Below, piece by piece: positions 19,005-38,467 of a DNA stretch of 64,000 nucleotides. The notes beneath the pieces are model-generated. The model did not search any database. It was given only the letters and a program-made list of their open reading frames with translations, and was not told the DNA's origin. The DNA comes from Cyanobium sp. FGCU52 (lineage in GTDB: Bacteria > Cyanobacteriota > Cyanobacteriia > PCC-6307 > Cyanobiaceae). Numbering within the stretch: position 1 is the stretch's first letter; every line of letters starts with the position of its first letter. Where the stretch lies: positions 1 to 64,000 of the forward strand of contig JANWUS010000053.1 of the NCBI GenBank assembly GCA_024958715.1, written 5' to 3'. The translations under genes and the position numbers were made by a program.

Positions 19005-19943
19005 TCACGACACGATCGGCTCGCTGGGATCCAGCCCTTCCACCTCCCCCTGGAACACCCGGCTCGCCACGATGTCCTCCGCCTCGATCGTCATCAGATC
19101 GATCTTCGTGAGCGGCGAACCCATGCGCTTGAACAGCCGATTCGCCTGACGCATGCGGGCCCGGTCGATGGCGTTTCGGATCGAGCGGGCATTGGCGAAG
19201 AACGGCAGTTGCATGCGCCGCACGATGTACTCGGCGAAGGCGGCGGTGGCCTCCTCGCTGAAGCGGTAGTTCTCCTCGGCAAGAATCAGCTTGGCGATCG
19301 CCAGCAGCTCATCGGCGCTGTAGTCGGGAAAGTCGATGTGGTTGGCCACCCGCGAGGAAAGGCCCGGATTGGACTGGTAGAAGACGTCCATCCGCTCCTT
19401 GTAGCCGGCGAAGATCACTACCAGATCGTCGCGGTTGGCCTCCATCACCTGCAGCAGGATCTCGATCGCCTCAGCGCCGTAATCCCGTTCGTTCTCGGGG
19501 CGGTAGAGGTAGTAGGCCTCGTCGATGAACAGCACCCCCCCCATCGCCTTCTTCAGCATCTCCCGCGTCTTCGGCGCCGTGTGGCCGATGTACTGACCCA
19601 CCAGGTCGTCGCGGGTGGCGGTCACCACATGGCCCTTGCGCACGTAGCCGAGGCCGTGCAGGATCTTCGACATCCGCTCGGCCACCGTTGTTTTGCCGGT
19701 GCCCGGGTGGCCGGTGAACGACATGTGCAGGCTGGGCGGCGCGGTGTCGAGGCCCACCTGCTCCCGCGCCCTGTTCACCACCAGCAAGGCGGCGATCTCG
19801 CGGATGCGCGCCTTGACCGGCCGCAGGCCGATCAGCTCCCGGTCGAGCTGGTCGAGCACCGCCTGGATGCCGGCGCCCTCGTAGGCCGCCTGCAGGTCGA
19901 CCGCGGTGTCGTCGGCGGAAATGGGTCGCTCAGAGGAGCTCAT
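19005..19943 (-). CDS. cbbX: RuBisCO activase CbbX
   Basis: The 312-residue AAA+ ATPase remodels inhibited RuBisCO, pulling on the large-subunit C-terminus to release sugar phosphates. It shows Walker [10 protein letters not shown], the pore-loop region [16 protein letters not shown], Walker [16 protein letters not shown], and [17 protein letters not shown] with the sensor-2 arginine. It is the last gene of the carbon-fixation cluster and its start overlaps the acRAF stop region by 14 bp. Its place downstream of acRAF fits the alpha-carboxysome gene order known from picocyanobacteria and chemoautotrophs. Confidence 0.95.
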
Positions 19944-20181
19944 CGACGGCGGTGGCGAAGGTGGTTTCGGCTTCGCCCACCGCCGGGTTCTCCCCTTCGC
20001 CCTCGGGACGGAGGGTGAGGTTCACATAGGTCCGCCCGAAGCTGATGTCGGGGAACCGGCCCACGCGCTCCGAGAGCGCATTCAGGCGCTCCAGGAAAGT
20101 GCGGGTGGTGTCGTAGTCCGCGAACTCGATGCGCCGCTCCAGGCGATCCGGGCGGTTCCTGTGGGTCCAGGGATGGTCCAT
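19930..20181 (-). CDS. acRAF: Alpha-carboxysome RuBisCO assembly factor (pterin dehydratase-like)
   Basis: The 83-residue protein has the pterin-4a-carbinolamine dehydratase-like fold: [42 protein letters not shown] and [15 protein letters not shown]. In true dehydratases this region has an H-H-P motif for catalysis; here the position reads [12 protein letters not shown], so the active-site histidines are lost. That loss is characteristic of acRAF, the chaperone that helps assemble form IA RuBisCO. I chose ATG 20181 ([12 protein letters not shown]) because the earlier in-frame region is Pro/Arg-rich and overlaps chpX. It sits between chpX and cbbX. Confidence 0.85.
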
Positions 20182-20191
20182 GACGTCGACC

Positions 20192-21355
20192 TTACGCCTG
20201 CGGCGGTTCCGCCTCGGCGTCGAGGGCGTCGGTGCGCGCCCGGCTGAGGCGGAGGGCCCAGGCCGCGGCGTGGGCACGGTTCGCCTCCCGGGCCGCCGGC
20301 TCGCTGGCCGTGAGCGGCTGGGGGAAGGTGCCGCGGATGGCGGCGTTGGTGACGCAGAACATCGCCTTCTGGAAGCTCATGCAGATCTTCACCCGCACGT
20401 CCCCTTCGCCCCGGGTGCGCTCGTCGTACCAGCGGTGCAGCCGCGCAGGCAGATGTCGGTACATGTCCTGCATCAGCAGGCTGGGGGGGATGCCGGCGCC
20501 CATCGTGGGCAGGGGATCGGCGAACAGGGCTCCGTAGGCGAACGTCGACTGATCAGGGGAAATCTGCTGGGCCTGGGCGTTGAAGGACACCGTGCCCAGG
20601 AACGGGGTGCCGCGCAGGAACACCGCCTCCACGTAAGGAACGGCCACGTCCACCAGGAAGGTGAGGCCGGCGTCGGGTGGCAGCACCCACAGCCGCTCGC
20701 CGGCCACCTCCACGGCGTAGGTGATCGGCAGGCCGGCGGCGGCCACCAGGGCGTCCTTGATGAACTCCACCACCCCCTCGATCGTGCGCACCTCACCGGC
20801 GGCCTCCGCCCGGGCCAGATCCAGGAACAGATCGCTCATCACCCGCCAGAACTGGCCGAGGGCATGGGTGGTGGCCGCGGCGCGGATCAGTTCGGGGAGG
20901 AACTCCCGGAACAGCGGATGCAGCACCGCCAGCAGGGGATCGCGCCGGGTCTTGCGGGCGATGATCGCCCGGCAGTTCTCCTGGAACGCGGGGCTGTCGA
21001 GATAGGCATCGAGCCCGCCGGTGCCATGCCAGAGCATCACCTTCATGCAGTACTCGGCGTACTCGTAGTTGATGCGGTCGTGGCAGAGGTGGCGCCAGAT
21101 CCTGCCCGGGCTCAGGTCGCCGTCGAGAAAGCGGAAGACCGGGAAGGGATTGAGGAACTGCTTCTCGGCCTGGTGGATGAGGTTGATGCTGTAGGCATCG
21201 AGAACCTCCCCGTAGCTCTGGAGCACATCCACCACCTGAAGCAGGTTGTCGGGGGTGTCGGCCAGCAGGGTGCGGCCGGCCAGCAGGGACGCCTCCAGGT
21301 CGGCGGCGCTGGGCTGCCCTCCGGCGTGAACGAGTTCGGCGGGGATGACCGGCAT
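20192..21355 (-). CDS. chpX: CO2-hydration protein ChpX/CupB type of NDH-1MS'
   Basis: The 387-residue protein belongs to the ChpX/ChpY (CupB/CupA) family, which binds zinc and converts CO2 to bicarbonate in association with a specialised thylakoid NDH-1 complex. Landmarks are VDVLQSYGEVLDAYSINLIHQAEKQFLNPFPVFRF, here given by its position (about residues 42-76), IWRHLCHDRINYEYAEYCMKVMLWHGTGGLD region (about 85-115), and FPQPLTASEP near the end. The His and Cys residues of HLCHDRINYEYAEYC are candidate metal ligands. Its ATG overlaps the ndhD4 stop by one base, so ndhF4-ndhD4-chpX form one unit. The pairing with NdhF4/NdhD4 marks the constitutive low-affinity type. Confidence 0.92.
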   Translation of the reverse strand: MPVIPAELVHAGGQPSAADLEASLLAGRTLLADTPDNLLQVVDVLQSYGEVLDAYSINLIHQAEKQFLNPFPVFRFLDGDLSPGRIWRHLCHDRINYEYAEYCMKVMLWHGTGGLDAYLDSPAFQENCRAIIARKTRRDPLLAVLHPLFREFLPELIRAAATTHALGQFWRVMSDLFLDLARAEAAGEVRTIEGVVEFIKDALVAAAGLPITYAVEVAGERLWVLPPDAGLTFLVDVAVPYVEAVFLRGTPFLGTVSFNAQAQQISPDQSTFAYGALFADPLPTMGAGIPPSLLMQDMYRHLPARLHRWYDERTRGEGDVRVKICMSFQKAMFCVTNAAIRGTFPQPLTASEPAAREANRAHAAAWALRLSRARTDALDAEAEPPQA

Positions 21356-22890: not shown

Positions 22891-24734
22891 CAGCCCCGGA
22901 ACCAGGAGAGGCTGCTGAACAGCAGCACGATCGCCAGCACCACGGTGAGCACGTAGGTCTGGAGATGGCCGCTCACCCCCAGCTTGAGGGCCTCGGCACT
23001 GGCCAGGGAGCCGACGCCGATGCGGTTGACCAGCCCGTTCACCACCACCCGGTCGAAAGCATTGGTGAGCTGGGCCAGGCCGGCCACGAAGGCCACGATC
23101 GTGGCCCGGTAGATGCGGTCGGTATAGAAGTCGTAGGCCAGCAGATCCTGCAGGGTGCGCAGGGGCCTGACCACCGACCGTGACCAGAACTTGTCGAGCG
23201 GCACCAGGGCCCCCACGAACACGCCGCTCGCCCCGCTGGCCACCACCAGGCCCGTGGTGAGCCAGGAGAAGGAGGCGATGCCCGGAGATGGATCGATCCG
23301 GCCGATCACCAGCGGCGTGAGCAGCACCAGCACCGTGAGTGAGACCATCGGCAGGGCCATCAGCCAGTTCACTTCGGGGGTGCGCTTGGTCTTGGGATGG
23401 GGGGTGTCGAGGAATACCTGCCGGTACACCCGAACCAGATTGAAGGCCGTCAGGGCGTTGGTGAGCAGCACCACGCCGGCGAACAGCGGCGCCATCGCCG
23501 CCATGCGCTCCACCATCAGGCCGAAGCACCAGAAGCAGCCCAGGGGCAGCAGCCCCGTGAGCCCGGCGGCGGCCACCAGGTAGGCGCCGGTGGTGGCGGG
23601 CATCCGCCGCCCCAGCCCCCCCAGTTCGGTGATGTCCTGGCAGTTGGTGGTGGCGATCACGCTGCCCACGCTCATGAACAGCAGGGCCTTGGCCAGGCCG
23701 TGGGCGAACAGCAGCAGCAGGGCGACCCCGGGGAGCTGCAGGGCGATCGCCAGGAACACCAGGCCCAGATAGGAGGTGGTGGAGTAGGAGAACGCCCGCT
23801 TGAGATCCACCTGGGCGATCGCCACCAGCGCACCGCCGAGGGCGCTGATCGTGCCCACCACGAGCAGCACGTCGATCGCCACCGGGGAGAGCCTCAGCAG
23901 GGGCATCAGCTTCAGCAGCACCAGGGCGCCGCAGGTGACCACGGCCGAGTTGCGCAGGATCGAGGCGGGGTTCGGACCCTCCATCGCCTCATCGAGCCAC
24001 AGGTGCATCGGGAACTGGGCGCACTTGCCCATGGGGCCGGCGATCAGCCCGAGGCAGAGCAGGGTGGCCGCCAGCGGTGAGAGATCGGCTTGGGCCGACC
24101 AGGCGTAGAGGTCGTTGAACTCCAGCGAACCCGCCCAGGCCGAGAGGGCCACCAGGCCCATCAGCAGCAGCACGTCACCCACGCGTTTGGTGAGGAAGGC
24201 GTCGCGGGCGGCGGTGACCACCAGGGGCTGGGCGTACCAGAACCCCACCAGCAGATAGGTGGAGAGGGTGAGCATCTCCAGCAGGAAATAGCTCAGGAAC
24301 AGATTGCTGCTCAGCACCACCCCGGACATGGCCCCTTCGAAGAAACCCACCAGGGCGTAGAAGCGCGCCAGGGACCATTCCTTGTCGAGGTACCCCAGGG
24401 CGAACACCTGGCAGATCAGGCTCATGAACGTGACCAGCTCCAGGGCGGCCAGGTTGGTGAGCGAGAGATCGAAGCCGATGCGCAGGTCGAGGTCGGCCGC
24501 CTGGAACCAGGGGATCTCGAGGTGCTGGGGGCCGATCGTGAGCACCTCCCGCAGGATCAGGCTGCCGTGCAGCACCGCCAGCAGGGTGACCAGCAGGTTG
24601 AGGTAGGCCGCCGGCCGGGGGCCGTTGCGCTTCACCCAGCCCGAAGCCCAGGGCAGGGACAGCACCATGCCACCGAACCCGTACAGGGGGATCAGCCAGA
24701 CCAGCTGGATCGGCAGGGAAGGGGCTGGGGACAA
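22890..24734 (-). CDS. ndhF4: NDH-1 subunit NdhF4 (CO2-uptake type)
   Basis: The protein has 614 residues and about sixteen membrane helices of the NuoL/NdhF family. It shows RIGFDLSLTNLAALELVTFMS, FFEGAMSGVVLSSNLFLSYFLLEMLTLSTYLLVGFWYAQP (about residues 130-170), FPMHLWLDEAMEGPNPASILRNSA and QVDLKRAFSYSTTSYLGLVF. The MHLWLDEAMEGP loop, rather than the respiratory PLHTWLPDAMEGPTP, is typical of CO2-uptake NdhF3/NdhF4 proteins. It leads the ndhF4-ndhD4-chpX operon. A hairpin 67 bp upstream separates it from the bacterioferritin-like gene. Confidence 0.92.
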   Translation of the reverse strand: MSPAPSLPIQLVWLIPLYGFGGMVLSLPWASGWVKRNGPRPAAYLNLLVTLLAVLHGSLILREVLTIGPQHLEIPWFQAADLDLRIGFDLSLTNLAALELVTFMSLICQVFALGYLDKEWSLARFYALVGFFEGAMSGVVLSSNLFLSYFLLEMLTLSTYLLVGFWYAQPLVVTAARDAFLTKRVGDVLLLMGLVALSAWAGSLEFNDLYAWSAQADLSPLAATLLCLGLIAGPMGKCAQFPMHLWLDEAMEGPNPASILRNSAVVTCGALVLLKLMPLLRLSPVAIDVLLVVGTISALGGALVAIAQVDLKRAFSYSTTSYLGLVFLAIALQLPGVALLLLFAHGLAKALLFMSVGSVIATTNCQDITELGGLGRRMPATTGAYLVAAAGLTGLLPLGCFWCFGLMVERMAAMAPLFAGVVLLTNALTAFNLVRVYRQVFLDTPHPKTKRTPEVNWLMALPMVSLTVLVLLTPLVIGRIDPSPGIASFSWLTTGLVVASGASGVFVGALVPLDKFWSRSVVRPLRTLQDLLAYDFYTDRIYRATIVAFVAGLAQLTNAFDRVVVNGLVNRIGVGSLASAEALKLGVSGHLQTYVLTVVLAIVLLFSSLSWFRG

Positions 24735-24800
24735 GGGTGGAGGCAGGGCGACGGCGGGGTGCGGGAAGCGGGGCGTCGGCGCTGGACTTTACGCAGGCTG

Positions 24801-24819
24801 CCGGATCGACCCGATCCGG
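24801..24819 (-). terminator. Hairpin between cso operon and ndhF4 operon
   Basis: CCGGATCG (24801-24808) and CGATCCGG (24812-24819) form a perfect 8-bp stem with a 3-base loop. It is 22 bp downstream of the bacterioferritin-like gene and 67 bp upstream of ndhF4 on the same strand. With no T-run it is more likely a partial terminator or processing site than a full stop. Confidence 0.55.
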
Positions 24820-24840
24820 ATCATGATTGCCCGTTGGTTT

Positions 24841-25314
24841 TCAGAACACGGCGCGCTGCAGGCTCGTCGCGGTGGCCGTGAGGTGGGCGAGCCAGGCGGC
24901 CAGCTCCTCCCCGTGGTGCTGCTCCTCGTCCCAGAGCGCACGGAAGAAGGATTCATTCTCCCGGTCGCCGATCAGCAGGCAGAACCGCACCGCCTCTGCG
25001 TAGTGGTGGATCAGGTCGGTTTCCAGCAGGCCGTTCAGGCGCAGCAGGCCCACCAGATCAGCGGCATGGGCGACGGGCCGGAGCTGGGAGGCGGCGGGGG
25101 CCGCTCCCAGGGCGATCATGCGCTGCACGATCCGTTCGGCGTGCTGCATCTCTTCCACCGTTTCCCGGCGGAAGCGATCGGCCGTCTGGCCGTCACCCCA
25201 GGCCTGAACCAGGCTGGCGTGGGTCATGTACTGCTGCACGGCCGAGAGCTCGAGGCTCAGGGCCCGGCCGAGGTAGCCAAGGACGCGGGGATGAACGGCG
25301 TCCATCGGGCTCAC
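24841..25314 (-). CDS. Bacterioferritin-like protein of the carboxysome cluster
   Basis: The 157-residue four-helix protein resembles bacterioferritin: [39 protein letters not shown] (E-x-x-H ligand pair), [14 protein letters not shown] and [16 protein letters not shown] (second E-x-x-H-like pair). These residues could form a diiron centre. A bacterioferritin-family gene sits at this end of alpha-carboxysome operons in Halothiobacillus and many picocyanobacteria; its role is unclear, with iron or redox buffering for the carboxysome as possibilities. Its start overlaps the csoS1E stop by 4 bp. Confidence 0.85.
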
Positions 25315-26045
25315 AGGCGGCGGGCCACGCCGCTGGCGCCGATGGCCGGCTCCACCTCGCCATGGGGGCGGGCGATGATGTGCGCGGCCACCAGGCCGTC
25401 GCCCACCCGCTCGCAGGCATCGGCGCCGGCGCGGACGGCGGCGTTCACGGCGCCGGTTTCACCGCGCACCATCACGGTGACGTAGCCCCCGCCCACGAAT
25501 TCACGGGCCACCAGGGTGACTTCGGCTGCCTTGGTCATGGCATCCGCCGCCTCGATCGCCGGCACGAGGCCGCGGGTTTCGATCATGCCGAGGGCGATGC
25601 CGTGGACGGTGGGAGCCATGGGGGAGGGGGCGAGGGTGCTGGGCGACTTGGGTGGGGTGCCGCCGGAGGCGGCGCCGCGACCGCGACTGCGGGCGGCGGG
25701 AGCGCTGCGGGCGCTGGTGGTGGCACGGGCGCCACCGGCACGGGTGCTGGTGGTGCGGCTGGAGGCCGCCGCCGCACGGGCCGGTGTGCGGCTGGTGCTG
25801 GCGCGGCTGGCCGAGCTGGCCGCCGGCAGGGCCGGTGGCGTGGAGGCCGGTGAGGGTGTGGCCGCAGTGGCCGGGCCCGGGGTCGCGGCTGACCCGGCGG
25901 CGGCGCTGCTGGTTGCCGCCGGAGTGGCGGGGGCGGGGGCCGCCGCAGCCGGAGGGGCAACGTTGCCCGCACCGGCGGCCGGGGTGGATCCGGCGGTGGT
26001 GGAGCCGGTCCGGGCGGAGGGGGCGGTGCGGGTGCGGCGGGCCAT
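25311..26045 (-). CDS. csoS1E: CsoS1E: BMC-domain shell protein with long N-terminal extension
   Basis: The frame encodes 244 residues. Residues 1-142 are an Ala/Ser/Thr/Pro/Arg-rich, probably disordered extension. Residues 143-244 are one BMC domain ([19 protein letters not shown] onward) nearly identical to CsoS1 in this window, differing at only a few positions (for example TLVA versus RLIG). CsoS1E with an N-terminal extension is known from marine Synechococcus, so this start is credible, though a shorter product from ATG 25619 would be an ordinary CsoS1. It should join the shell facets, with the extension reaching inside or outside. The gene overlaps the bacterioferritin-like gene by 4 bp and lies 81 bp after csoS4B. 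Confidence 0.8.
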
Positions 26046-26126
26046 GGGGCGCAGGGGTGAGAAGGGAGCGGGTCGGGGCTGGTCGGGGGCGTGTCGCCCG
26101 TCAGCGGGGGACGGAAGGATCGTTCA

Positions 26127-26378
26127 TCAGCCGTCAGGTTCCCAGAAGTCGATGATCCCGGCGATCGTCAGGTCGGTGTGGGTGTCGGGGTCGCCGCAGG
26201 CGAAGCGGGCCGCCGAGCCGCTGGCGGTGAACACCCAGTTGCCGGCGGACGCGCCCACCGGATCGACGGCGACGCTGAGCTTGCCCTTGGCGGTGCGCAG
26301 CACCCGCAGGTTCCAGTGCTTCAGTCCCGGCACCCGCTGGGTGCAGACGAGCGACCCGGTGACCTGCATGATCTCCAT
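26127..26378 (-). CDS. csoS4B: Carboxysome vertex protein CsoS4B
   Basis: The 83-residue protein is a bacterial microcompartment vertex (CsoS4/EutN/CcmL) pentamer subunit that caps the icosahedral vertices of the shell. It reads MQVTGSLVCTQRVPGLKH, KLSVAVDPVGASAGNWVFTASGSAAR and DLTIAGIIDFW. Its ATG overlaps the csoS4A stop by one base. Length and motifs are normal for the family. Confidence 0.94.
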   Translation of the reverse strand: MEIMQVTGSLVCTQRVPGLKHWNLRVLRTAKGKLSVAVDPVGASAGNWVFTASGSAARFACGDPDTHTDLTIAGIIDFWEPDG

Positions 26379-26737
26379 CAGGCCTTGCCTCCGCTGGCGG
26401 CCGTGCCGGGTGCCGCTGCGGGGGGAGCTGGCGCGGCCGCGGTGGAGGGTTTCGCAGCGGGAGCTGCGCTCGAGCTCGGCGGGCTCTTGCCCGCCTCCGG
26501 ATCCCAGTGGTCGATGATGCCCACGATCGTCAGATCGCTCGGGTACGACTTGCTGCCGGCCGCCTCGCGTGCAGCCGAGCTGCCCACGCAGATCACCCAG
26601 TCGCCGGGGATGCAGCCCACCGCATCGACGGCCACCTTCTGCGTGCTGCCGTCGAGCACCACCTGCAGGTGCTTGTGCTCGAAGTCGGGGATGCGGTTGG
26701 TGGACACCAGCGGCTTCACCACCTTGCAGATCAGCAT
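26378..26737 (-). CDS. csoS4A: Carboxysome vertex protein CsoS4A, C-terminally extended
   Basis: The first 85 residues are a canonical vertex pentamer subunit: MLICKVVKPLVSTNRIPDFEH, KVAVDAVGCIPGDWVICVGSSAAREAAG and SDLTIVGIIDHWDPE. Residues 86-119 form an Ala/Pro/Ser-rich tail ending SGGKA that CsoS4A proteins usually lack. The tail keeps the frame intact up to the one-base overlap with csoS4B. It would project from the vertices. One base separates the gene from the end of csoSCA. Confidence 0.93.
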   Translation of the reverse strand: MLICKVVKPLVSTNRIPDFEHKHLQVVLDGSTQKVAVDAVGCIPGDWVICVGSSAAREAAGSKSYPSDLTIVGIIDHWDPEAGKSPPSSSAAPAAKPSTAAAPAPPAAAPGTAASGGKA

Positions 26738-26738
26738 C

Positions 26739-28457
26739 TCAGTGGCCTCCGGATTCCGGGAAGGTGATCGTGGAACCTACCGCTTCGGCAGGGGTGTGGG
26801 CGTCCTTGTCCCGCACGGTCAGCAGGGCATGGAGCAGTCCCTGGGCAAACAGCTCGGCGTAGCGGCTTTCGATCGCCGCGCCCACCCGCCGGGCGCTGCG
26901 CACGGCCCGCTCCTTGGCTCCGGGCACCTTGCCGCTGTAGTCGAAGCGCACCACCACCGGCACCGGCAGCCCGCGGGACACGTTCAGGCCCTTGAAGATC
27001 TTCACCCCCACGTCGAGGTCAGGAGCGCCTTCCTCCACCGTGTCCATGTAGGCGAAGTAGGTGAGATTGCGCAGGTGGATCTCCTTGAAGCCGATGCCCA
27101 CGCCGATGAACCGCTCGGCATGGCCCGCATCGCTGTAGTGGCCGCCGTGGAACTCGCGCACGTAGTCGATCTGAGAGAGGTTGTTCTCGATCAGCCGGGC
27201 GATCATCCGAACCATGCCGGGATCCGGCGCCGACGCCGCGGCTTCGCGCACCAGTTCCACAATCCGTTCCCGGGCCTGGGCCGCCGGCAGGCTGCGGGTG
27301 GCCTCGTGCACGTCGCGGGCATCCAGCCAGCGGTCGAGATGGGTGGTGCCGTCGATGCCGGGCACGTGCACCCGGATGGCATCGGTGTCGGTGTCGATGC
27401 CCATCAGCAGCAGATCCACCGAGGCGCCGCAGCAGAAGCTGTTCTCCACCGCCTGCTGGAAGTCGTGCAGCCGGCTGATGCCGCAGGAGGCGGCGAGCGC
27501 GTCGTTGCTGCCGTGGGCGGCACAGCCCTCATGGCTGGGGTCGAGGGAGCTGAAGTGGTAAAGCACCACCTTCAGGTAGCGGGTGTCCGCATGGGCGGGA
27601 TTGGGGATCGCCTCGCGGTAGCGGCGGTGCTCGGTCTTCACCCAGCGATCCACCGTGTTCTCCACATCGAACAGGGCGCCGGCATGGGGCCGGCGGCGCA
27701 CGGAGGCATAAGGGATCCTCAGTCCGAAGGCGATGGCATGGGCCAAGCGGCCGTCGGCGCAGGGGGTGATGTCGAGCAGGTGGAAGCCGCAATCGAGCAG
27801 GAACTGGTCGAAGGCGGTGGCCGCGGGGCTGCCGGGTCCGCCGGCGAGCGGATCGGCGTCGAAGAAGAAGGCGCTGGTCTGCTCGTAAGTTTCAAACACG
27901 CACCAGGCGAACAGGGTGCGCATGTCGAGCTGGGTGACCCAGGCCGTTTCCAGGATCGGCAGCGGCAGTTCGAATCCCAGCTCGCGCCGGGCCAGCTCCT
28001 GGGCCCGGCTCACGAAGTCCCCTTCGTGCTGCAGGGCCGAAAGCTGCTTGAGCACCGGCACGATGCGATCGAAGCGGTCCTTCACCTGCAGGTCGTAGGC
28101 GTGCAGCGCCCTGTTGGCCGCCTGATCGCTGAGGGGATGACCTGCGGAGCCGGACCTGGCCCCGGCGGCACTCCGGTTGCGGGGGCTCTGTGCGGAGAGC
28201 GCGCCGGGGGGCGTGCTGGTGCCCCGTTGCCGCTGCGTCAGCACGGGCTGCGGCCGGATCCGACCGGTGGGTCGGCCGCTGCCGCTGCTGCTGTTCCTGG
28301 CCACACGAGCGCGGGTTCCCCGGGCCGGCAGAACGCCGGGGCCCTGGGTCTCGGCCGCGTCAGTCTCCTGGGGAGATGCCGGGTTCGGCCTCCGATCGGC
28401 GCGTCGGGGGGCGGTGGGGGCGAGGGGGGCGGCGTTCATCGCCGGACGGCGGGGCAT
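26739..28457 (-). CDS. csoSCA: Carboxysomal carbonic anhydrase CsoSCA (CsoS3)
   Basis: The 572-residue protein converts bicarbonate to CO2 for RuBisCO inside the shell. It is a divergent beta-class enzyme: candidate zinc ligands are Cys~233 (ITPCADGRLAHA, with the Asp/Arg pair next to it), His~315 (CAAHGSND) and Cys~325 (AASCGISRL). A degenerate second half (about 400-572) follows, as in the known structure. The first 105 residues are Pro/Arg/Ser-rich and disordered; in relatives this part binds RuBisCO or CsoS2. It starts at ATG 28457 (or 28439), 8 bp after csoS2, and ends one base before csoS4A. Confidence 0.95.
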   Translation of the reverse strand: MPRRPAMNAAPLAPTAPRRADRRPNPASPQETDAAETQGPGVLPARGTRARVARNSSSGSGRPTGRIRPQPVLTQRQRGTSTPPGALSAQSPRNRSAAGARSGSAGHPLSDQAANRALHAYDLQVKDRFDRIVPVLKQLSALQHEGDFVSRAQELARRELGFELPLPILETAWVTQLDMRTLFAWCVFETYEQTSAFFFDADPLAGGPGSPAATAFDQFLLDCGFHLLDITPCADGRLAHAIAFGLRIPYASVRRRPHAGALFDVENTVDRWVKTEHRRYREAIPNPAHADTRYLKVVLYHFSSLDPSHEGCAAHGSNDALAASCGISRLHDFQQAVENSFCCGASVDLLLMGIDTDTDAIRVHVPGIDGTTHLDRWLDARDVHEATRSLPAAQARERIVELVREAAASAPDPGMVRMIARLIENNLSQIDYVREFHGGHYSDAGHAERFIGVGIGFKEIHLRNLTYFAYMDTVEEGAPDLDVGVKIFKGLNVSRGLPVPVVVRFDYSGKVPGAKERAVRSARRVGAAIESRYAELFAQGLLHALLTVRDKDAHTPAEAVGSTITFPESGGH

Positions 28458-28464
28458 CGGGCGA

Positions 28465-30867
28465 TCAGCCTCGTGCGCCGCCGGACACGGTGATCAGCGA
28501 TCCGGAGCTGGTGTTGCCGCTGGAGCCGGTGATGCGGCTCACGGGTTCGGGGATCGCCTCGTTGCGCTTGGGCTGGAAGCTGGGCATCGCCGACATCGGG
28601 CCCGGACGGGTGGGGTTGCGGCGACGGGCGGAAGCACCTTCGGTTCCGGTCACGTGCTCACCACGATCCCAGTCGTCGCCGGTGATCTTGAGGCCCGCGG
28701 AGATGCCCTCGCCGGTCACCCGCGACACGGGGCGCACGTCCTCGTCCACGGTCACGGGGGCGGGAGCCACCGGACGCTGGGCGGGGGGGCGACGGTCGAA
28801 GCGGAACTGCTCGGTGCCGGTCACCTTGTCGGCCGCCATGTCGAACGGACCGGTGATGCGGCCGCCCTGCTCGTAGGTGCTGCCGGTCACGTGGCCGGTG
28901 CGCTCGCGCTCGATCTGGGCGGCACGCGCCGGCGACTGAACGCTGAACTGCTGCCAGGGAGCGGACTCGAGCGGCTGGGGAAAGTCGGCGTCGGCGCTGC
29001 TGGCGGCGGAACAGGTGGCGGCCAGCTGGTCGGCGCCCACGTAAGGGGTGCCGGTGATGTCCTCGCAGGCGCCCCGTTCGGCGCCGGTGAGGCTGCCGCC
29101 GATGCCGGGCTGGATGCCGGTCATCACGGTGCCCATCCGCACCGGTGTGCGCTGGCGCACGGCCTGGACCTGGCCGGTGGAACACCAGGCGCCCGCCTGC
29201 TCAAGGCCGGCGTAGGGGGTGCCGGTCACCACCTTGCAGGTGCCGGGCTCATCGCCGGTCACCTTCTCGGAGCGACCGGTGCGGGTGCCGCTCACCACCA
29301 GGTTGCGGTTGGTGATGCTGAAGCCCACCTTGGCCGGTTCGGGCGCGGGACGCGCGCCGCAGAACTTCTCGTACTGCTGGCTGCCGATGTATTCGTCGCC
29401 GGTGATGATCCGGCAGCTGCCGGGCTCGTCACCCGTCACCTGGTCGCTGCGGCCCACGTGGGTGCCGGTGATGCCGGTGCCCCGCAGGGTCTGGAGCGTG
29501 GCCACCTTGCTGGGAACGCGGCCGGGCACCTTGGCCTCGGCGGCCTCGTTCACGTACTGGTCGCCCGTGAGCTGGCGGCCGGAGCCCGGTTCATCGCCGG
29601 TGACTTTCTGGGAGCGGCCCACCAGCACACCCGAGACCGGCTGGCCGCCGAGGGTGGAGGTGCGGCCCACCTTGCGGGGGGAGGGCTGGGTGGTGCCGCA
29701 GTAGGCGGCCGACTGGTTGGCCGACACGTACTCGGTGCCGGTGATGGTCTTGCAGGTGCCGGGTTCGTCGCCGGTCACCTTCTCGGAGCGGCCCACCTCG
29801 TTGCCGGTGACCCGGTTGCCGTGGGTGGTGGCGGTGACGCGCACCTTGGCGGGCTGTGCCGGCGAGGGATCCTTGCCGCAGAAGGTCTGGAACACCTCTG
29901 AGCCCAGGTACTCGGTGCCGGTGATCGTGCGGCAGGTGGCCGCCTCGTTGCCGGTGGTCTTGGGCGAGCGGTTGGCCTGGGTGCCGGTGACGACTTGACC
30001 GCGGAGGGTTTCACTCACCCCCACCTTCCAGCTGGCGTCGGCGGCGGCGGCCTGGCGGGCGCCGTGGCGGTTGGGGCCGGTGGGGCGGGTGCCGCCGCCG
30101 ATGCGGGCGGTGCCGGCCGAACCCACCTTGCACTTCAGTTCCCGCACCTTCTGGGCCAGTTCGCGGGAGGTGAGGTCGGGATTGGCCTGGCGGGCCACCG
30201 CAGCGGCGGTGCTGCTGGTGGGGGCCACGGCGGACTTGCCACGCTTGGAGAGGGCCTCGCGGCGGGCGAGCACCAGGGAGCGGCTCGGGTTGTGCTGGGC
30301 GCTCACCTTGCGGTTGGTGCTGCGGCCGCTGCCGCCGTTGCCGTTGCGGGAGGAGGCGCGGCTCCCATCGAGGGAGAGGCTGGGGGCGCTGCTGCGGCTG
30401 CGCTCGACCGCCTTCTCTCCTTCCTGGCACTTGCACTTGTGGCCGGGGTCGGCGCTCACGGCCGGCGCACCCGCGCCGGTGGCGGTGGGCCGACGCACTT
30501 CCTGACGGGTGCGATCGCGGGAGGTGTCGGCGCGCTTGCCGCGGCGGGAGAGGGCTTCGCGGCGGGCGAGCACCAGATCGCGGCTGGGATTGGCGATCGG
30601 CCGGGCGGTGCTGCGCCGGGGAGTTGCCGAGGGGGTGCTCAGGGAGGTGGAAGTCCGGGAGGGGCGGGGACGCTCCACCGGGGCGGCGTCGCTGGCCTGC
30701 CGCACATCCGCGGCGGACGGGGCCGGGCTGGTGCGGGACGGCCGGCTGTCGGCCGCGGTGCGCACCCGACCTGGAGTCGAGCCATAACGGCCAGCGGATT
30801 TCTTGCCGCTGCTGGTGAGCGCCTTCCGGCGTTCCAGGGCTGCTGCACGACTGGAGGAGCTGGCCAT
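28465..30867 (-). CDS. csoS2: Carboxysome scaffold protein CsoS2
   Basis: The 800-residue disordered scaffold links RuBisCO to the shell. The N-terminal region has basic RuBisCO-binding motifs near residues 12, 99 and 206 (ERRKALTSSGK, ARREALSRRGK, ARREALSKRGK). The middle region has six repeats built on V-T-G-T and G-R-S-x-K-V-T-G-D-E-P-G-T-C patterns with paired Cys; the third repeat lacks both Cys (DEPGSGRQLTGDQYV). The C-terminal region carries degenerate VTG repeats and ends SRITGSSGNTSSGSLITVSGG, the shell-anchoring tail. Repeats give strong DNA repetition at 28700-30000. Two forms (full and truncated by frameshift) are known in some species; I did not find a definite slippery site. Confidence 0.95.
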   Translation of the reverse strand: MASSSSRAAALERRKALTSSGKKSAGRYGSTPGRVRTAADSRPSRTSPAPSAADVRQASDAAPVERPRPSRTSTSLSTPSATPRRSTARPIANPSRDLVLARREALSRRGKRADTSRDRTRQEVRRPTATGAGAPAVSADPGHKCKCQEGEKAVERSRSSAPSLSLDGSRASSRNGNGGSGRSTNRKVSAQHNPSRSLVLARREALSKRGKSAVAPTSSTAAAVARQANPDLTSRELAQKVRELKCKVGSAGTARIGGGTRPTGPNRHGARQAAAADASWKVGVSETLRGQVVTGTQANRSPKTTGNEAATCRTITGTEYLGSEVFQTFCGKDPSPAQPAKVRVTATTHGNRVTGNEVGRSEKVTGDEPGTCKTITGTEYVSANQSAAYCGTTQPSPRKVGRTSTLGGQPVSGVLVGRSQKVTGDEPGSGRQLTGDQYVNEAAEAKVPGRVPSKVATLQTLRGTGITGTHVGRSDQVTGDEPGSCRIITGDEYIGSQQYEKFCGARPAPEPAKVGFSITNRNLVVSGTRTGRSEKVTGDEPGTCKVVTGTPYAGLEQAGAWCSTGQVQAVRQRTPVRMGTVMTGIQPGIGGSLTGAERGACEDITGTPYVGADQLAATCSAASSADADFPQPLESAPWQQFSVQSPARAAQIERERTGHVTGSTYEQGGRITGPFDMAADKVTGTEQFRFDRRPPAQRPVAPAPVTVDEDVRPVSRVTGEGISAGLKITGDDWDRGEHVTGTEGASARRRNPTRPGPMSAMPSFQPKRNEAIPEPVSRITGSSGNTSSGSLITVSGGARG

Positions 30868-32894: not shown

Positions 32895-33206
32895 TCAGTC
32901 CTTCGAACCGAGGCCGAAGCTGCTGTTCAGGGCCGGCTCCACTTCGCGGTGGGGGCGGGCAATGATGTGGGCGGCCACCAGGCCGTCACCCACGCGCTCG
33001 CAGGCATCGGCGCCGGCACGGACGGCGGCGTTCACCGCACCGGTCTCGCCCCGCACCAGCACGGTCACGTAGCCGCCACCGACGAATTCGCGGCCGATCA
33101 GGCGCACCTCGGCGGCCTTGGTCATGGCGTCAGCGGCTTCGATCGCGGGCACCAGGCCGCGCGTCTCGATCATGCCGAGGGCGATGCCCATGGTTTCGTT
33201 TGCCAT
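32895..33206 (-). CDS. csoS1: Carboxysome hexameric shell protein CsoS1
   Basis: The 103-residue BMC-domain protein ([52 protein letters not shown]) tiles the shell facets as hexamers whose small pores pass bicarbonate and ribulose bisphosphate. I chose ATG 33206, which has an AGGAG Shine-Dalgarno six bases before it, over the earlier in-frame start at 33275, which would add a basic leader found in no BMC protein. It is the first gene of the operon with cbbL. The SD sequence can be masked by a short CTCCT/AGGAG hairpin. Confidence 0.96.
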   Translation of the reverse strand: MANETMGIALGMIETRGLVPAIEAADAMTKAAEVRLIGREFVGGGYVTVLVRGETGAVNAAVRAGADACERVGDGLVAAHIIARPHREVEPALNSSFGLGSKD

Positions 33207-33223
33207 TGCCTGCTCCTGGAGGA

Positions 33224-33238
33224 GGGGGTGGAATGTTC
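33224..33238 (-). promoter_or_regulatory. Leader motif shared with sbtA
   Basis: The plus-strand 15-mer GGGGGTGGAATGTTC lies 18 bp upstream of csoS1 and recurs exactly at 34815-34829 upstream of sbtA. In both places CCTGGAG lies next to it (33215-33221 and 34801-34807). On the transcribed strand both copies are followed by a small hairpin. It could be a common protein- or RNA-level control site for the two CO2-concentrating operons. Confidence 0.45.
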
Positions 33239-33318
33239 GCTTGCAACCCTCCTCCTCCGCCTCTCCCTTCGTCAACCCATCAGGCCCTTTCCGGCCATCA
33301 CCAAACCCGCCCCAACAG

Positions 33319-33397: not shown

Positions 33398-33679
33398 TCA
33401 GAACGGTTCGGCCTGGGATACGAAACCGACGCCGCCGTAGCGCTTCAGCACCGGGCCCAGCGAGGCCCGCAGCTTCGGCAGCAGGTCCGGTTCGCAGAAC
33501 ACGATCACGTGGGCGTTGGCCCCCAGGCCGCTGAAGTCCATCGCCTCGTCGATCGCTCCCCCCACGCCCATCCCGGTGACATGACGCATCACCGAATACC
33601 CCGGCGCCCCGCTTTCCCGGATCGCCCGGCAGACGCGGGCCACCTCCCGTTCGCTGAGAAAGAGGTCGATGCGGTTCAT
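33398..33679 (-). CDS. sbtB: PII-like protein SbtB
   Basis: The 93-residue protein has the ferredoxin-like PII fold: MNRIDLFLSEREVARVCRAI, a T-loop region SGAPGYSVMRHVTGMGVGGAID, and HVIVFCEPDLLPKLRASLGPVLKRYGGVGFVS. SbtB binds cAMP, AMP or other adenine nucleotides and regulates the bicarbonate transporter SbtA. It ends at SQAEPF and lacks the C-terminal Cys motif (CGPxGC) seen in Synechocystis SbtB. Its start overlaps the sbtA stop by 4 bp, the usual tight coupling of the pair. Confidence 0.92.
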   Translation of the reverse strand: MNRIDLFLSEREVARVCRAIRESGAPGYSVMRHVTGMGVGGAIDEAMDFSGLGANAHVIVFCEPDLLPKLRASLGPVLKRYGGVGFVSQAEPF

Positions 33680-34671
33680 CGGGCCGACGGAATCAGGTTC
33701 TGCACCAGCAGCATGTACAGGGGGATGCCCACCACCACGTTGAAGGGGAAGGTGACCCCCAGGGCGGAAGAGATGTAGAAGCTCGGATTGGCCTGGGGCA
33801 CCGTCATCCGCATGGCCGCCGGCACGGCGATGTAGGACGCGCTGGCACACAGCACCATGAACAGCAGGGCGTCGCCCTGGTTCAGTCCCAGCAGCAGGGC
33901 GATCGCCAGGCCGGCCATCGCGTGCAGCAGGGGCGCCAGGATGGCGAAGGCGATCAGGAAGGTGCTGGCCTGGCGCAGATCCCGCAGCCGCTGAGCGGCC
34001 ACGATCCCCATGTCCAGCAGGAAGAAGCAGAGGGCGCCGTAGAACAGCTTCTCGGTGAAGGGATCCATCTTCGCCAGCCCGGCCGGGCTGAAGCTGGCCA
34101 CCACGAAGCCGATCACCAGGCTGCCCACCAGCAGAAAGATCGAGCCGTTGAGGAACGCCTCCTGCAGCACTTCCCGCCACCGCAGAGTCTCCCCATCCCC
34201 CTCGTCGCGGGGAGCGGTGAGCCTCGCCAGCAACACCCCCACCACGATCGCCGGCGATTCCATCAGCGCCAGGGCGGCCACCATGAAGCCGTCGAACTCC
34301 ACCGCCAGCACGTTCAGGAAGCTCTGGGCCGTGATGAAGGTCACGGCGCTGATCGAGCCGTAGGCCGCCGCGGTCGCGGCGGCGTTGTAGGTGTCCAGCC
34401 GGGTGCGCAGCATCAGGAAGCTGCTCAGCGGCACCAGCAGCGACATCGCCACCGCGGCGCCGATGGTGAGCAGCACCTGGCTGCCCAGACCGCTCTGGGC
34501 CAGTTCCATGCCGCCCTTGAAGCCGATGGCCAGCAGCAGATAGAGCGAGAACAGCTTCGGCAGCGGCGTGGGCAGTTCCAGGTCGGACCCCAGCAGCACG
34601 CCGAGGATGCCGAGAAAGAAGAACAGGACAGGGGCGGAGAGGAGGTTCTGGAGAACCAGGTTCGATTGCAT
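33676..34671 (-). CDS. sbtA: Sodium-dependent bicarbonate transporter SbtA
   Basis: The 331-residue protein has about ten membrane helices in two inverted halves. Landmarks are LFFFLGILGVLLGSDLELP, LLLAIGFKGGMELA, TAAAYGSISAVTFITAQSFL and ALLFMVLCASASYIAVPAAMRM, the last two lining the substrate site. It is a high-affinity Na+/HCO3- symporter of the plasma membrane that loads the cytoplasm with bicarbonate for carboxysomes. It is the upstream gene of sbtAB, 246 bp from the divergent rdgB start, a gap that holds the leader motif shared with csoS1. Confidence 0.94.
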   Translation of the reverse strand: MQSNLVLQNLLSAPVLFFFLGILGVLLGSDLELPTPLPKLFSLYLLLAIGFKGGMELAQSGLGSQVLLTIGAAVAMSLLVPLSSFLMLRTRLDTYNAAATAAAYGSISAVTFITAQSFLNVLAVEFDGFMVAALALMESPAIVVGVLLARLTAPRDEGDGETLRWREVLQEAFLNGSIFLLVGSLVIGFVVASFSPAGLAKMDPFTEKLFYGALCFFLLDMGIVAAQRLRDLRQASTFLIAFAILAPLLHAMAGLAIALLLGLNQGDALLFMVLCASASYIAVPAAMRMTVPQANPSFYISSALGVTFPFNVVVGIPLYMLLVQNLIPSAR

Positions 34672-35555: not shown

Positions 35556-36383
35556 TCAGCCGTTGATCTGGGCCACGGCCCGCATCGCCGCCGCCGCCGC
35601 CTCCTCCACGTCGCCCTCCTTGCCGGCCAGGGTGAGGCGGCCGAAGGCCCCCACGGCCTTGACATCCACCACGGTGATGTTGGAGGCCTTCTCCGCCTCG
35701 TTGGCCGCCATCAGCACGTAGCCGGCGGGCTCGGTTTCGAGGATGAACATGCTCATGCCGGCCTGGATCATCGAGCCGCGCCGGTTCTGGCGGTTGATCA
35801 GCACGGCGTGGTCGGGGGTGATCGCCCGGATGATCTCCGTCCAGGTGACCTCGCAGCGGCTGCGGCGGTCGATGCTGCTGCCGATCGCCTCCAGCACCAC
35901 CTCACCGGAGTGGAGCACGTTGCTCTGGTCGCGGTGGTACATCGCGATCGAGCCGAAGGCCCGCTCCACCACCATCTGGCCCAGCCGCACCGTGCTGGCC
36001 TTCAGCGCGATGTCGGTGACCCGGTGCACCGCCATGCCCGGGGACACCTCCAGCCAGAGGCAGGCATCGCCGGGGATCGGCAGGAAGCCCTGGGACACGG
36101 TGCCCATGTAGGCCGCCAGCTGGGGCTGCAGCGAATCGAGAAACACGTAGGTGCGCAGCTCGATCGACTGCACATGGCTTGACTGACGCGCGATCCGCCG
36201 ACCCTCGCTGTCGGTGGTGATCACGCAGCTGGCGCCGGAGGACTGGCCGCCGATGTCGGTGCCGGTGATGCGGGGCCCGGCGCTGCTGAGGGCGGAACGC
36301 CGCCGGCTCACAGCCCGGTCCTCACCGTCGTAGGAGGAGCCGGAGGGTGGGCTGAGGGAACGCGTCAACCTGGAATCCGTCAC
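35556..36383 (-). CDS. csoS1D: Tandem-BMC shell protein CsoS1D
   Basis: The protein has 275 residues. An N-terminal disordered segment (about 1-60) is followed by two BMC domains (about 65-165 and 170-265): [46 protein letters not shown], then [29 protein letters not shown] and [25 protein letters not shown]. Such tandem proteins form stacked trimers with a large gated pore for metabolite passage. It starts with GTG 36383, because the long open frame beyond it is antisense to another gene. It converges with rdgB (26 bp). Confidence 0.93.
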
Positions 36384-36513
36384 GGCGCCGACGCCGGTCC
36401 GGCTGCAAGCGATGCCCGGCGACGCTCTGGAAGTGGGGTCATCGTACCGCGTGAACCCCTTGCCCTCCCTCACGCAGCCGGTACCGTCCGGCCCAAACGC
36501 GTCGCCGAACGTC

Positions 36514-36996
36514 ATGCCCTCGAAGCGCCCCTCCACCCGTTCCGCCGCCGAGGCCACCGATGCCACCCGCGCCGCCGAGCCGCTGCCGGCGGAGGAGGCC
36601 CGGGGGCCCCTGCCGGACTGGATGGCCCAGGCGGCCGCCCAGGGGGTGAAGCCGGAGCAGGCCCTGGCCTTCATCGGCCTGGGGCTGATGCGGCGCATGG
36701 CCGGCGGCGAGGAATCGGCCTGGATCTGGAACGAGGAGGAGGACGGCGGCAGCGTGGATCTGGCGGCCCTGCGCCAGCGCCTGGAGATCACCCAGCTGGC
36801 CCTGCAGACCGGCGCCCCCCTCAGCACCGCCGAGCTCACCCAGCTGCTGGGGGCGCGCCCCGGCGGGCCGGTGGTGGAGCGCGGCGGCCTGCGGGCCCGC
36901 CGCCTCGGCCGCAACCTCTGGAAGCTGGCCCGGATCGAGGACGGGGGCGATCGGGCGGGCGCCTCGTTCGCCGAGGGGTTCCGCCGCCGGCTCTGA
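36514..36996 (+). CDS. Conserved-position hypothetical protein between csoS1D and chlN
   Basis: The protein has about 160 residues from ATG 36514 ([16 protein letters not shown]). It has a disordered acidic/basic leader, a helical segment [28 protein letters not shown], and a winged-helix-like part [30 protein letters not shown], where the last helix could contact nucleic acid. It ends [22 protein letters not shown] do not recognise a named family. A gene is known at this place in other picocyanobacteria from general memory, but its function is not known to me. An upstream in-frame ATG at 36412 would overlap the csoS1D promoter. Confidence 0.6.
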
Positions 36997-37087
36997 ATCC
37001 CGCCCGGAGGCGCGGGCGGGAGGGGGCGCGGGTGCGGGATCGCACACCGGAAGCCTCCCCGGGCCCCCACTTCCCCAACAGATGTAA

Positions 37088-38467
<1,380 letters not shown>

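Follow-up and report, generated by a model that had tools for sequence, protein, structure and literature searches.

CsoS1E of Cyanobium sp. FGCU52, a minor carboxysome shell protein with a selected cationic tail and a possible role in carboxysome positioning

Results and discussion

The cso locus and its csoS1E gene

The window analysed, 64,000 nucleotides of DNA from Cyanobium sp. FGCU52, carries on its minus strand an alpha-carboxysome (cso) cluster comprising csoS1A, the Rubisco genes, csoS2, csoSCA, csoS4A, csoS4B and csoS1E. Pfam confirmed csoS1A, csoS4A, csoS4B and csoS1E, while the remaining cso names were assigned by eye. The nearest named records are from Cyanobium and Synechococcus, which fits an alpha-cyanobacterial cso cluster. 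csoS1A (32895-33275, minus strand; ORF list and Pfam), the tail-less twin of csoS1E, is listed from a TTG, but its true start is likely to be the ATG six residues before GIALG; the start lies at the equivalent place in 19 of 19 other csoS1A genes checked. Near csoS1A are a gene for a Na+-dependent bicarbonate transporter (33676-34671; Sbt_1) and, by eye, a small PII-like reading frame at about 33398-33780. A long ORF (35556-37178), with a weak BMC match at its end (E 7.9e-5, below the cut-off), is probably csoS1D with a false upstream start.

The gene at 28465-30867 (minus strand) was named csoS2 and encodes the scaffold, which carries Rubisco-binding repeats. Vertex pentamers are encoded by csoS4A (26378-26737, minus strand; Pfam) and csoS4B (26127-26378, minus strand; PF03319), the latter being the upstream neighbour of csoS1E. 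CsoS4A ends in a 41-residue A/P/S stretch of net charge +1; this stretch differs in length among genomes (median 15 residues, 95 loci) and is about neutral. Relatives of csoS4B were sought in viral contigs and none was found. Downstream of csoS1E lie a ferritin-like gene (24841-25314, minus strand; Pfam), which also follows csoS1 in a gammaproteobacterial cso locus, and a pterin-4a-carbinolamine dehydratase-like gene of the cso cluster (19930-20277, minus strand; PF01329, E 5.5e-6). A promoter and terminator search at 24600-26800 found none.

csoS1E itself (25311-26045, minus strand, ATG at 26045; ORF list and Pfam) encodes 244 amino acids. Its BMC (BMC-H) part (25311-25619), delimited by alignment and Pfam, begins at an internal Met, residue 143, whose ATG at 25619 aligns with the start Met of CsoS1A; the extension is thus 142 residues long (25620-26045), as the sequence-only reading of this DNA had put it, or 148 when counted up to GIALG. 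PF00936 (BMC) matches residues 151-227 (E 1.3e-25), and a Pfam search of the same protein gave no match in the tail. AlphaFold2, run on a 29-sequence alignment, gave pLDDT block means of 40-51 for residues 1-150 and 84-89 for residues 151-210, with a fall again toward the C-terminus. CsoS1E is therefore predicted to be a folded BMC domain with an unstructured tail, in line with the disorder proposed earlier; the tail was delimited by its composition, the AlphaFold2 model and its kept frame. It runs from a basic start through a neutral Ala/Pro/Ser/Thr stretch ending PPALPAA to an Arg/Ser/Thr-rich half and a Gly/Pro linker, and contains 14 Arg and one Lys with no Asp or Glu.

The product of 25311-26045 is CsoS1E, an already named minor alpha-carboxysome shell protein: it has a single CsoS1-like BMC domain, a disordered N-terminal extension and a place in the cso cluster beside csoS4B. 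The earlier reading had already given it this name. Although CsoS1E passes the NCBIfam CsoS1 model (174.6 against a cut-off of 166), its tail and its separation from CsoS1A in the tree described below set it apart from the CsoS1 major shell protein.

CsoS1E is an old paralogue of CsoS1A

Over the 86-residue BMC core, CsoS1E and CsoS1A of the window share 81 residues and differ at five, so the near identity claimed from the sequence holds. At the DNA level 35 of 258 bases differ, four, two and 29 of them at codon positions 1, 2 and 3; the differences do fall mostly at third positions, although 'roughly a tenth' of sites was slightly low for 13.6%. Across 74 close CsoS1E pairs, which share members, the core dN/dS was 0.010. 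A tree was built from 47 cores of each paralogue, and its best split separated 46 CsoS1A from all 47 CsoS1E, which points to CsoS1E as an old paralogue of CsoS1A and no recent copy. Gene conversion as the source of the likeness is rejected because the two sets of cores split in the tree. Together, these comparisons support purifying selection, rather than recent duplication or gene conversion, as what keeps the BMC domains alike, and on this the earlier reading was right. Two results count against that rejection: by raw DNA identity, the own CsoS1A was a tied nearest neighbour for the CsoS1E of two loci (L141 and L156), and when proteobacterial copies were added in a larger tree, 12 CsoS1A fell beside the E clade, whose support was 0.30.

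Two core positions distinguish the paralogues. Position 29 is R in 47/47 CsoS1A and T in 46/47 CsoS1E, and position 81 is R in 46/47 CsoS1A and mostly S, G, V or N in CsoS1E; positions 32 and 44 contrast by majority only. Between loci, median core identity is 100% for CsoS1A, which is almost invariant, and 96.5% for CsoS1E. Among the C-termini listed, CsoS1A ends in KD and CsoS1E in RR plus one residue (21/22).

Such differences, together with the adjacency of csoS1E and csoS4B, would suit an architectural or pore-tuning hexamer sitting beside the vertices, alone or mixed with CsoS1A, with the tail as a spacer that limits stacking or tunes hetero-hexamers. Published analysis reports co-evolution of CsoS1E with CsoS1A and CsoS4A/B and a model that puts CsoS1E around the pentamers (PMC10689251). 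Co-evolution is hard to interpret for paralogues so alike, however, the reported shell map has a resolution of about 18 A (PMC10689251), and an architectural role alone would leave the kept basic residues and the tail motifs described below unexplained. We regard such a role as rather unlikely.

Next to csoS4B, csoS1E stands where proteobacteria have a csoS1 without a tail. Gene order in L166, a gammaproteobacterial locus, runs csoS4A, csoS4B, csoS1, csoS1, ferritin-like, pterin dehydratase-like, ParA-type (McdA-like) and McdB-like, the Mcd names being given by gene place and protein ending; in the window it is csoS4B, csoS1E, ferritin-like, NDH-type genes (by eye) and pterin dehydratase-like. 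Of 108 testable loci, 82 have a ferritin-like pattern after csoS1E; among the 26 without it, 20 are listed, and 14 of these carry tails from the set of 18 below 50% GC. In proteobacterial loci 70 of 74 CsoS1 copies have their start five to six residues ahead of GIALG, and no lead to the first in-frame Met exceeds 56, in a count that includes some copies two or three times (L160 and L173 are the same locus, as are L166, L172 and L180). Since these proteins are tail-less, the sampling places the acquisition of the tail in alpha-cyanobacteria, on the csoS4B-adjacent csoS1. Two CsoS1E traits, Ser-81 and a basic C-terminus, recur in the last csoS1 copy of several proteobacteria, which fits this origin; the trees do not settle it.

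The tail is coding sequence under selection

A search of the 299 genomes in the order found csoS4B in 286, and 165 csoS4B-bearing loci, many of them one locus under two ids, were taken for comparison. A BMC gene follows csoS4B in 146, 13 end within 451 bases of it, and six continue for at least 2.4 kb after csoS4B with no BMC gene. The 146 loci gave 117 distinct sequences, from which seven were set aside (L160, L162 and L164-L166, proteobacterial and tail-less; L047, with the tail in another frame; and L049, N-masked), leaving 110 tails of 56-204 amino acids counted up to GIALG. In L047 (G137) a tail-like sequence runs from an ATG after csoS4B in a frame that differs from that of the BMC domain, through either a sequencing error or a genuine frameshift. 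Three records named Microcystis elabens or Aphanothece (L167, L095 and L097) have csoS4B 90-92% identical to that of the window; these names may not match the true place of the organisms among alpha-cyanobacteria.

An extension frame lacking conservation would have refuted the first reading, and this condition does not hold. In all 110 distinct orthologues no stop interrupts the frame between csoS4B and the BMC domain. Scanning for an in-frame ATG began 30 nt ahead of the csoS4B stop, and the first one met was taken as the tail start; these starts fall -8 to 99 nt from that stop. Ala follows the start Met in 92/110 tails and MA[TS][PR] opens 70/110. In the 18 tails below 50% GC (1637 codons) the other five frames hold 71, 202, 133, 42 and 157 stops; the zero in the tail frame holds by construction, that frame being traced upstream from the BMC domain as far as an ATG. 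Over the 74 close pairs, which are not independent because sequences recur among them, tail dN/dS was 0.365 with a pairwise median of 0.36, and none of 73 scored pairs exceeded 1. The pattern indicates that the tail is real coding sequence, kept by purifying selection.

Which start is used is less clear-cut. Translation of the short form alone would also have refuted the first reading; against it, the ATG aligned with the CsoS1A start is kept in only 80/110 orthologues and absent in 30/110; L056 and L070 have GTG at this place and L019 has an ATG one codon later. A Shine-Dalgarno word (at least four bases of AAGGAGGT, at -18 to -4) was found at 17/19 csoS1A starts and at 77/110 starts of the csoS4B just upstream of csoS1E, but at 0/110 long csoS1E starts and 0/80 internal ATGs, so that neither start is favoured. 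The csoS1E leaders listed from GC-rich genomes are C/T-rich.

The kept internal ATG, the large variation in length with many indels, and the lack of csoS1E in all 28 sampled genomes of one genus group (g2, below) would be expected if the tail were a low-complexity addition under weak constraint, free to expand and of little function, with the BMC domain as the useful product, perhaps also made from the internal ATG. Against this stand the dN/dS (0.37, no scored pair above 1), the partly conserved N-terminus, the open frame in low-GC genomes, and an internal ATG that 30 orthologues lack and that in the other 80 has no Shine-Dalgarno word. A tail of little function therefore seems quite improbable to us.

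Composition, charge and motifs of the tail

Net charge is positive in all 110 tails (median +11, minimum +1), 24 of which have no acidic residue, whereas only 3 of the 95 A/P/S-rich CsoS4A C-terminal stretches readable in the same loci are positive (median -1). Between the 74 closest pairs Lys/Arg was kept at 93.4% of positions (Lys-Arg exchange counted as kept), A/S/T/P/G at 79-87% and Asp/Glu at 65.4%. In the more distant bands, in which tail alignment is unreliable, the order changes: A 0.749, P 0.654 and Lys/Arg 0.577, then A 0.707, P 0.600 and Lys/Arg 0.475. Shuffled DNA of low-GC tails encodes K+R 0.136 and D+E 0.062 against 0.141 and 0.070 observed, and for the remaining tails 0.154 and 0.041 against 0.106 and 0.017. 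As shuffled DNA also encodes a positive excess, the charge excess alone is no proof of selection. Depletion of hydrophobic residues does exceed the expectation from base composition, at 0.143 observed against 0.361 in shuffled DNA for low-GC tails and 0.080 against 0.151 for the others. F, W, Y and C together account for 67 of 13403 tail residues, with W rounding to 0.0%. Most of the charge sits in the second half, whose mean is +7.5; the first 12 residues average +1.6 and the remainder of the first half +1.4.

Short hydrophobic motifs mark lineages: [QK][TI]VD[VI] in 20/110 tails, TVTA[QKT]TV in 10/110 and ALPAA-like stretches in 47/110, including PPALPAA of the window. One tail has two kinds; 16 are listed without any by a slightly different pattern, two of them with near versions. 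These are probably short docking motifs. QTVDV-like motifs occur in marine-type tails (part of L058-L092 and of L155-L161) and TVTAQTV in one group. In the four loci searched (L155, L156, L157 and L161) the QTVDV-type motif is absent from other cso-operon proteins and is found in CsoS1E alone.

Distribution across genomes

At least two CsoS1-type matches were found in 87/87 genomes outside genus group g2 (59/59 and 28/28 in two samples), and in the 28-genome sample the open frame holding the second match was 173-300 codons long in every case. All 28 sampled g2 genomes (4/4 and 24/24) have a single CsoS1-type match. From the literature and two Prochlorococcus records without csoS1E (L158 and L159), g2 is probably high-light Prochlorococcus, from which CsoS1E has been reported absent.

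The expected side of the tail

CsoS2 N-terminal repeats that bind Rubisco are basic. The CsoS1E tail is basic too, and a tail reaching the lumen, through the pore or from a flipped hexamer, could bind Rubisco, CsoS2 or other cargo; binding of cargo or CsoS2 had been suggested from the sequence. CsoS1E was among all nine cso proteins reported by mass spectrometry in purified Cyanobium PCC 7001 carboxysomes (PMC10689251). The N- and C-termini of CsoS1A are stated to lie on the concave, cytoplasm-facing side (PMC10938918). PduA is described with the same concave, cytoplasmic topology, although that account calls native BMC orientation ambiguous and mentions dissenting evidence (PMC6109187). Given the topology stated for CsoS1A, the CsoS1E tail should be outside, and luminal binding of cargo or CsoS2 is unlikely.

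A profile of 92 distinct CsoS2 Rubisco-binding repeats gave no significant match to the tails (best 4.9 bits, E 0.12), against 3.5 bits for the best shuffled tail (five per tail) and 102 bits for the CsoS2 of the window, whose repeats served as positive control. CsoS2-type Rubisco-binding repeats are thus rejected for the tail. Cyanobium carboxysomes holding Rubisco are also reported to assemble without CsoS1E (PMC6120970). We consider a luminal, cargo-binding tail improbable, and the earlier suggestion of binding to cargo or CsoS2 is not supported.

A possible role in carboxysome positioning

By analogy with PduK and EutK, we tentatively favour, at somewhat less than even chances, an outward tail that positions or spaces carboxysomes. 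CsoS1E would be a minor hexamer that tiles into the shell with CsoS1A through its near-unchanged BMC domain and displays up to six flexible, positive tails per hexamer on the carboxysome exterior. Like the extensions of PduK and EutK, these could contact an anionic or specific cellular partner, candidates being nucleoid DNA, polyphosphate, the membrane, or a protein reached via the short lineage motifs, and such contacts might hold carboxysomes apart and in place. In favour count the kept frame of the tail and the purifying selection on it, its positive charge and scarcity of hydrophobic residues, and the high retention of Lys/Arg in the closest pairs. The tail, its frame and charge, its distribution and the gene slot were computed here; topology, the absence of McdAB and the PduK and EutK phenotypes come from the literature, and positioning is our interpretation.

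Well-formed Pdu compartments lacking PduK remain polar, and the PduK extension, on the outward concave face, has been suggested to contact other cell parts (PMC9132943). Eut compartments lacking EutK are mostly polar and more static, and the tail of EutK includes a domain of positive charge (PMC12487888). After purification, however, PduK and EutK from Klebsiella behaved as monomers (PMC12058022), which weakens the analogy with CsoS1E.

A positioning tail would matter most in alpha-cyanobacteria because McdAB is reported missing there (PMC12918739, PMC8262871). With the alpha-McdA of the gammaproteobacterial locus L166 as query, the genome of the window gave no match, and 44 of 61 family genomes gave distant ParA/P-loop-type matches (best E 5.8e-9, 28% identity); as a control, best matches in three of four other proteobacterial cso genomes were 50-83% identical, two of them adjoining csoS1. 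A McdB search, run with no positive control, was empty in 61/61 family genomes.

Minimal Cyanobium carboxysomes made in tobacco chloroplasts without CsoS1E, CsoS1D, CsoS4A/B and CsoSCA clustered, and the authors likened this to distribution mutants (PMC6120970). In MED4, a high-light strain, the Rubisco signal reportedly occupies irregular areas, 200-400 nm in size, next to the nucleoid (PMC7886902), which agrees with clustering and proves nothing. Since the sampled g2 genomes are without CsoS1E and, by report, without McdAB, a positioning role would be dispensable there. The wide variation of tail lengths and motifs across orthologues also speaks against positioning, and the placement of CsoS1E beside pentamers is compatible with it but suggests another role. 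The fuller proposal, that CsoS1E is the carboxysome-distribution factor of alpha-cyanobacteria, arising on the csoS1 next to csoS4B in a lineage without McdAB and tethering or spacing carboxysomes (for example, on the nucleoid) by an outward, McdB-like cationic tail, is speculative and on balance doubtful.

In the open-licence literature searched, no paper proposing positioning by CsoS1E was found, and its passages on CsoS1E proposed neither a function for the tail nor a link to positioning. New here is the evidence for a coding, selected, cationic and old tail and for a second CsoS1-type gene in all sampled non-g2 genomes, together with a reasoned reversal of the expected side and function of the tail.

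Alpha-cyanobacteria include the dominant marine picocyanobacteria. If positioning by CsoS1E were true, it would offer a simple answer to carboxysome spacing and inheritance in alpha-cyanobacteria without McdAB, and carboxysomes would join Pdu and Eut compartments as a third type positioned by a BMC-H extension. CsoS1E would then be a part worth including when Cyanobium carboxysomes are rebuilt in plants.

Comparison with known systems

Some proteobacterial cso loci contain McdB-like disordered genes ending Trp-Pro-Asp (L162, 10887-11312; L160, about 7545; L166, 6214-6552), and no ParA-type ORF was seen beside that of L162. Alpha-McdB resembles the CsoS1E tail in being disordered, basic and rich in A/S/T/P/K, but it is reported as a separate protein with a C-terminal Trp (PMC12918739), whereas the tail is covalently part of a shell protein and practically without Trp, CsoS1E of the window having none. 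The L166 McdB-like protein contains KSLPAATKSRGR, resembling RALPAARGRS of two tails (L022 and L027). Homology of tail and alpha-McdB was rejected: the McdB-like proteins of L160 and L162 have no KSLPAATKSRGR-like stretch, so the resemblance is treated as one of composition.

Like CsoS1E, PduK and EutK are minor BMC-H paralogues that carry a flexible extension, which is long and predicted flexible in CsoS1E and has been proposed to face outward in PduK. Their extensions are reported as C-terminal, with a Cys-rich motif in PduK and a nucleic-acid-binding-type fold in EutK (PMC12058022), whereas that of CsoS1E is N-terminal and predicted to be wholly disordered. CsoS1A/CsoS1C, the major hexamer (PDB 2EWH, 2G13, 3H8Y and 8WXB), has a core close to that of CsoS1E (81/86 identical in the window) and lacks the tail. 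The closest counterpart is the published alpha-cyanobacterial CsoS1E (Cyanobium PCC 7001 and others), which likewise has a single BMC domain, a disordered N-terminal extension and a place after csoS4B; its extension is given as about 80 or 80-100 amino acids, against 142 in the window.
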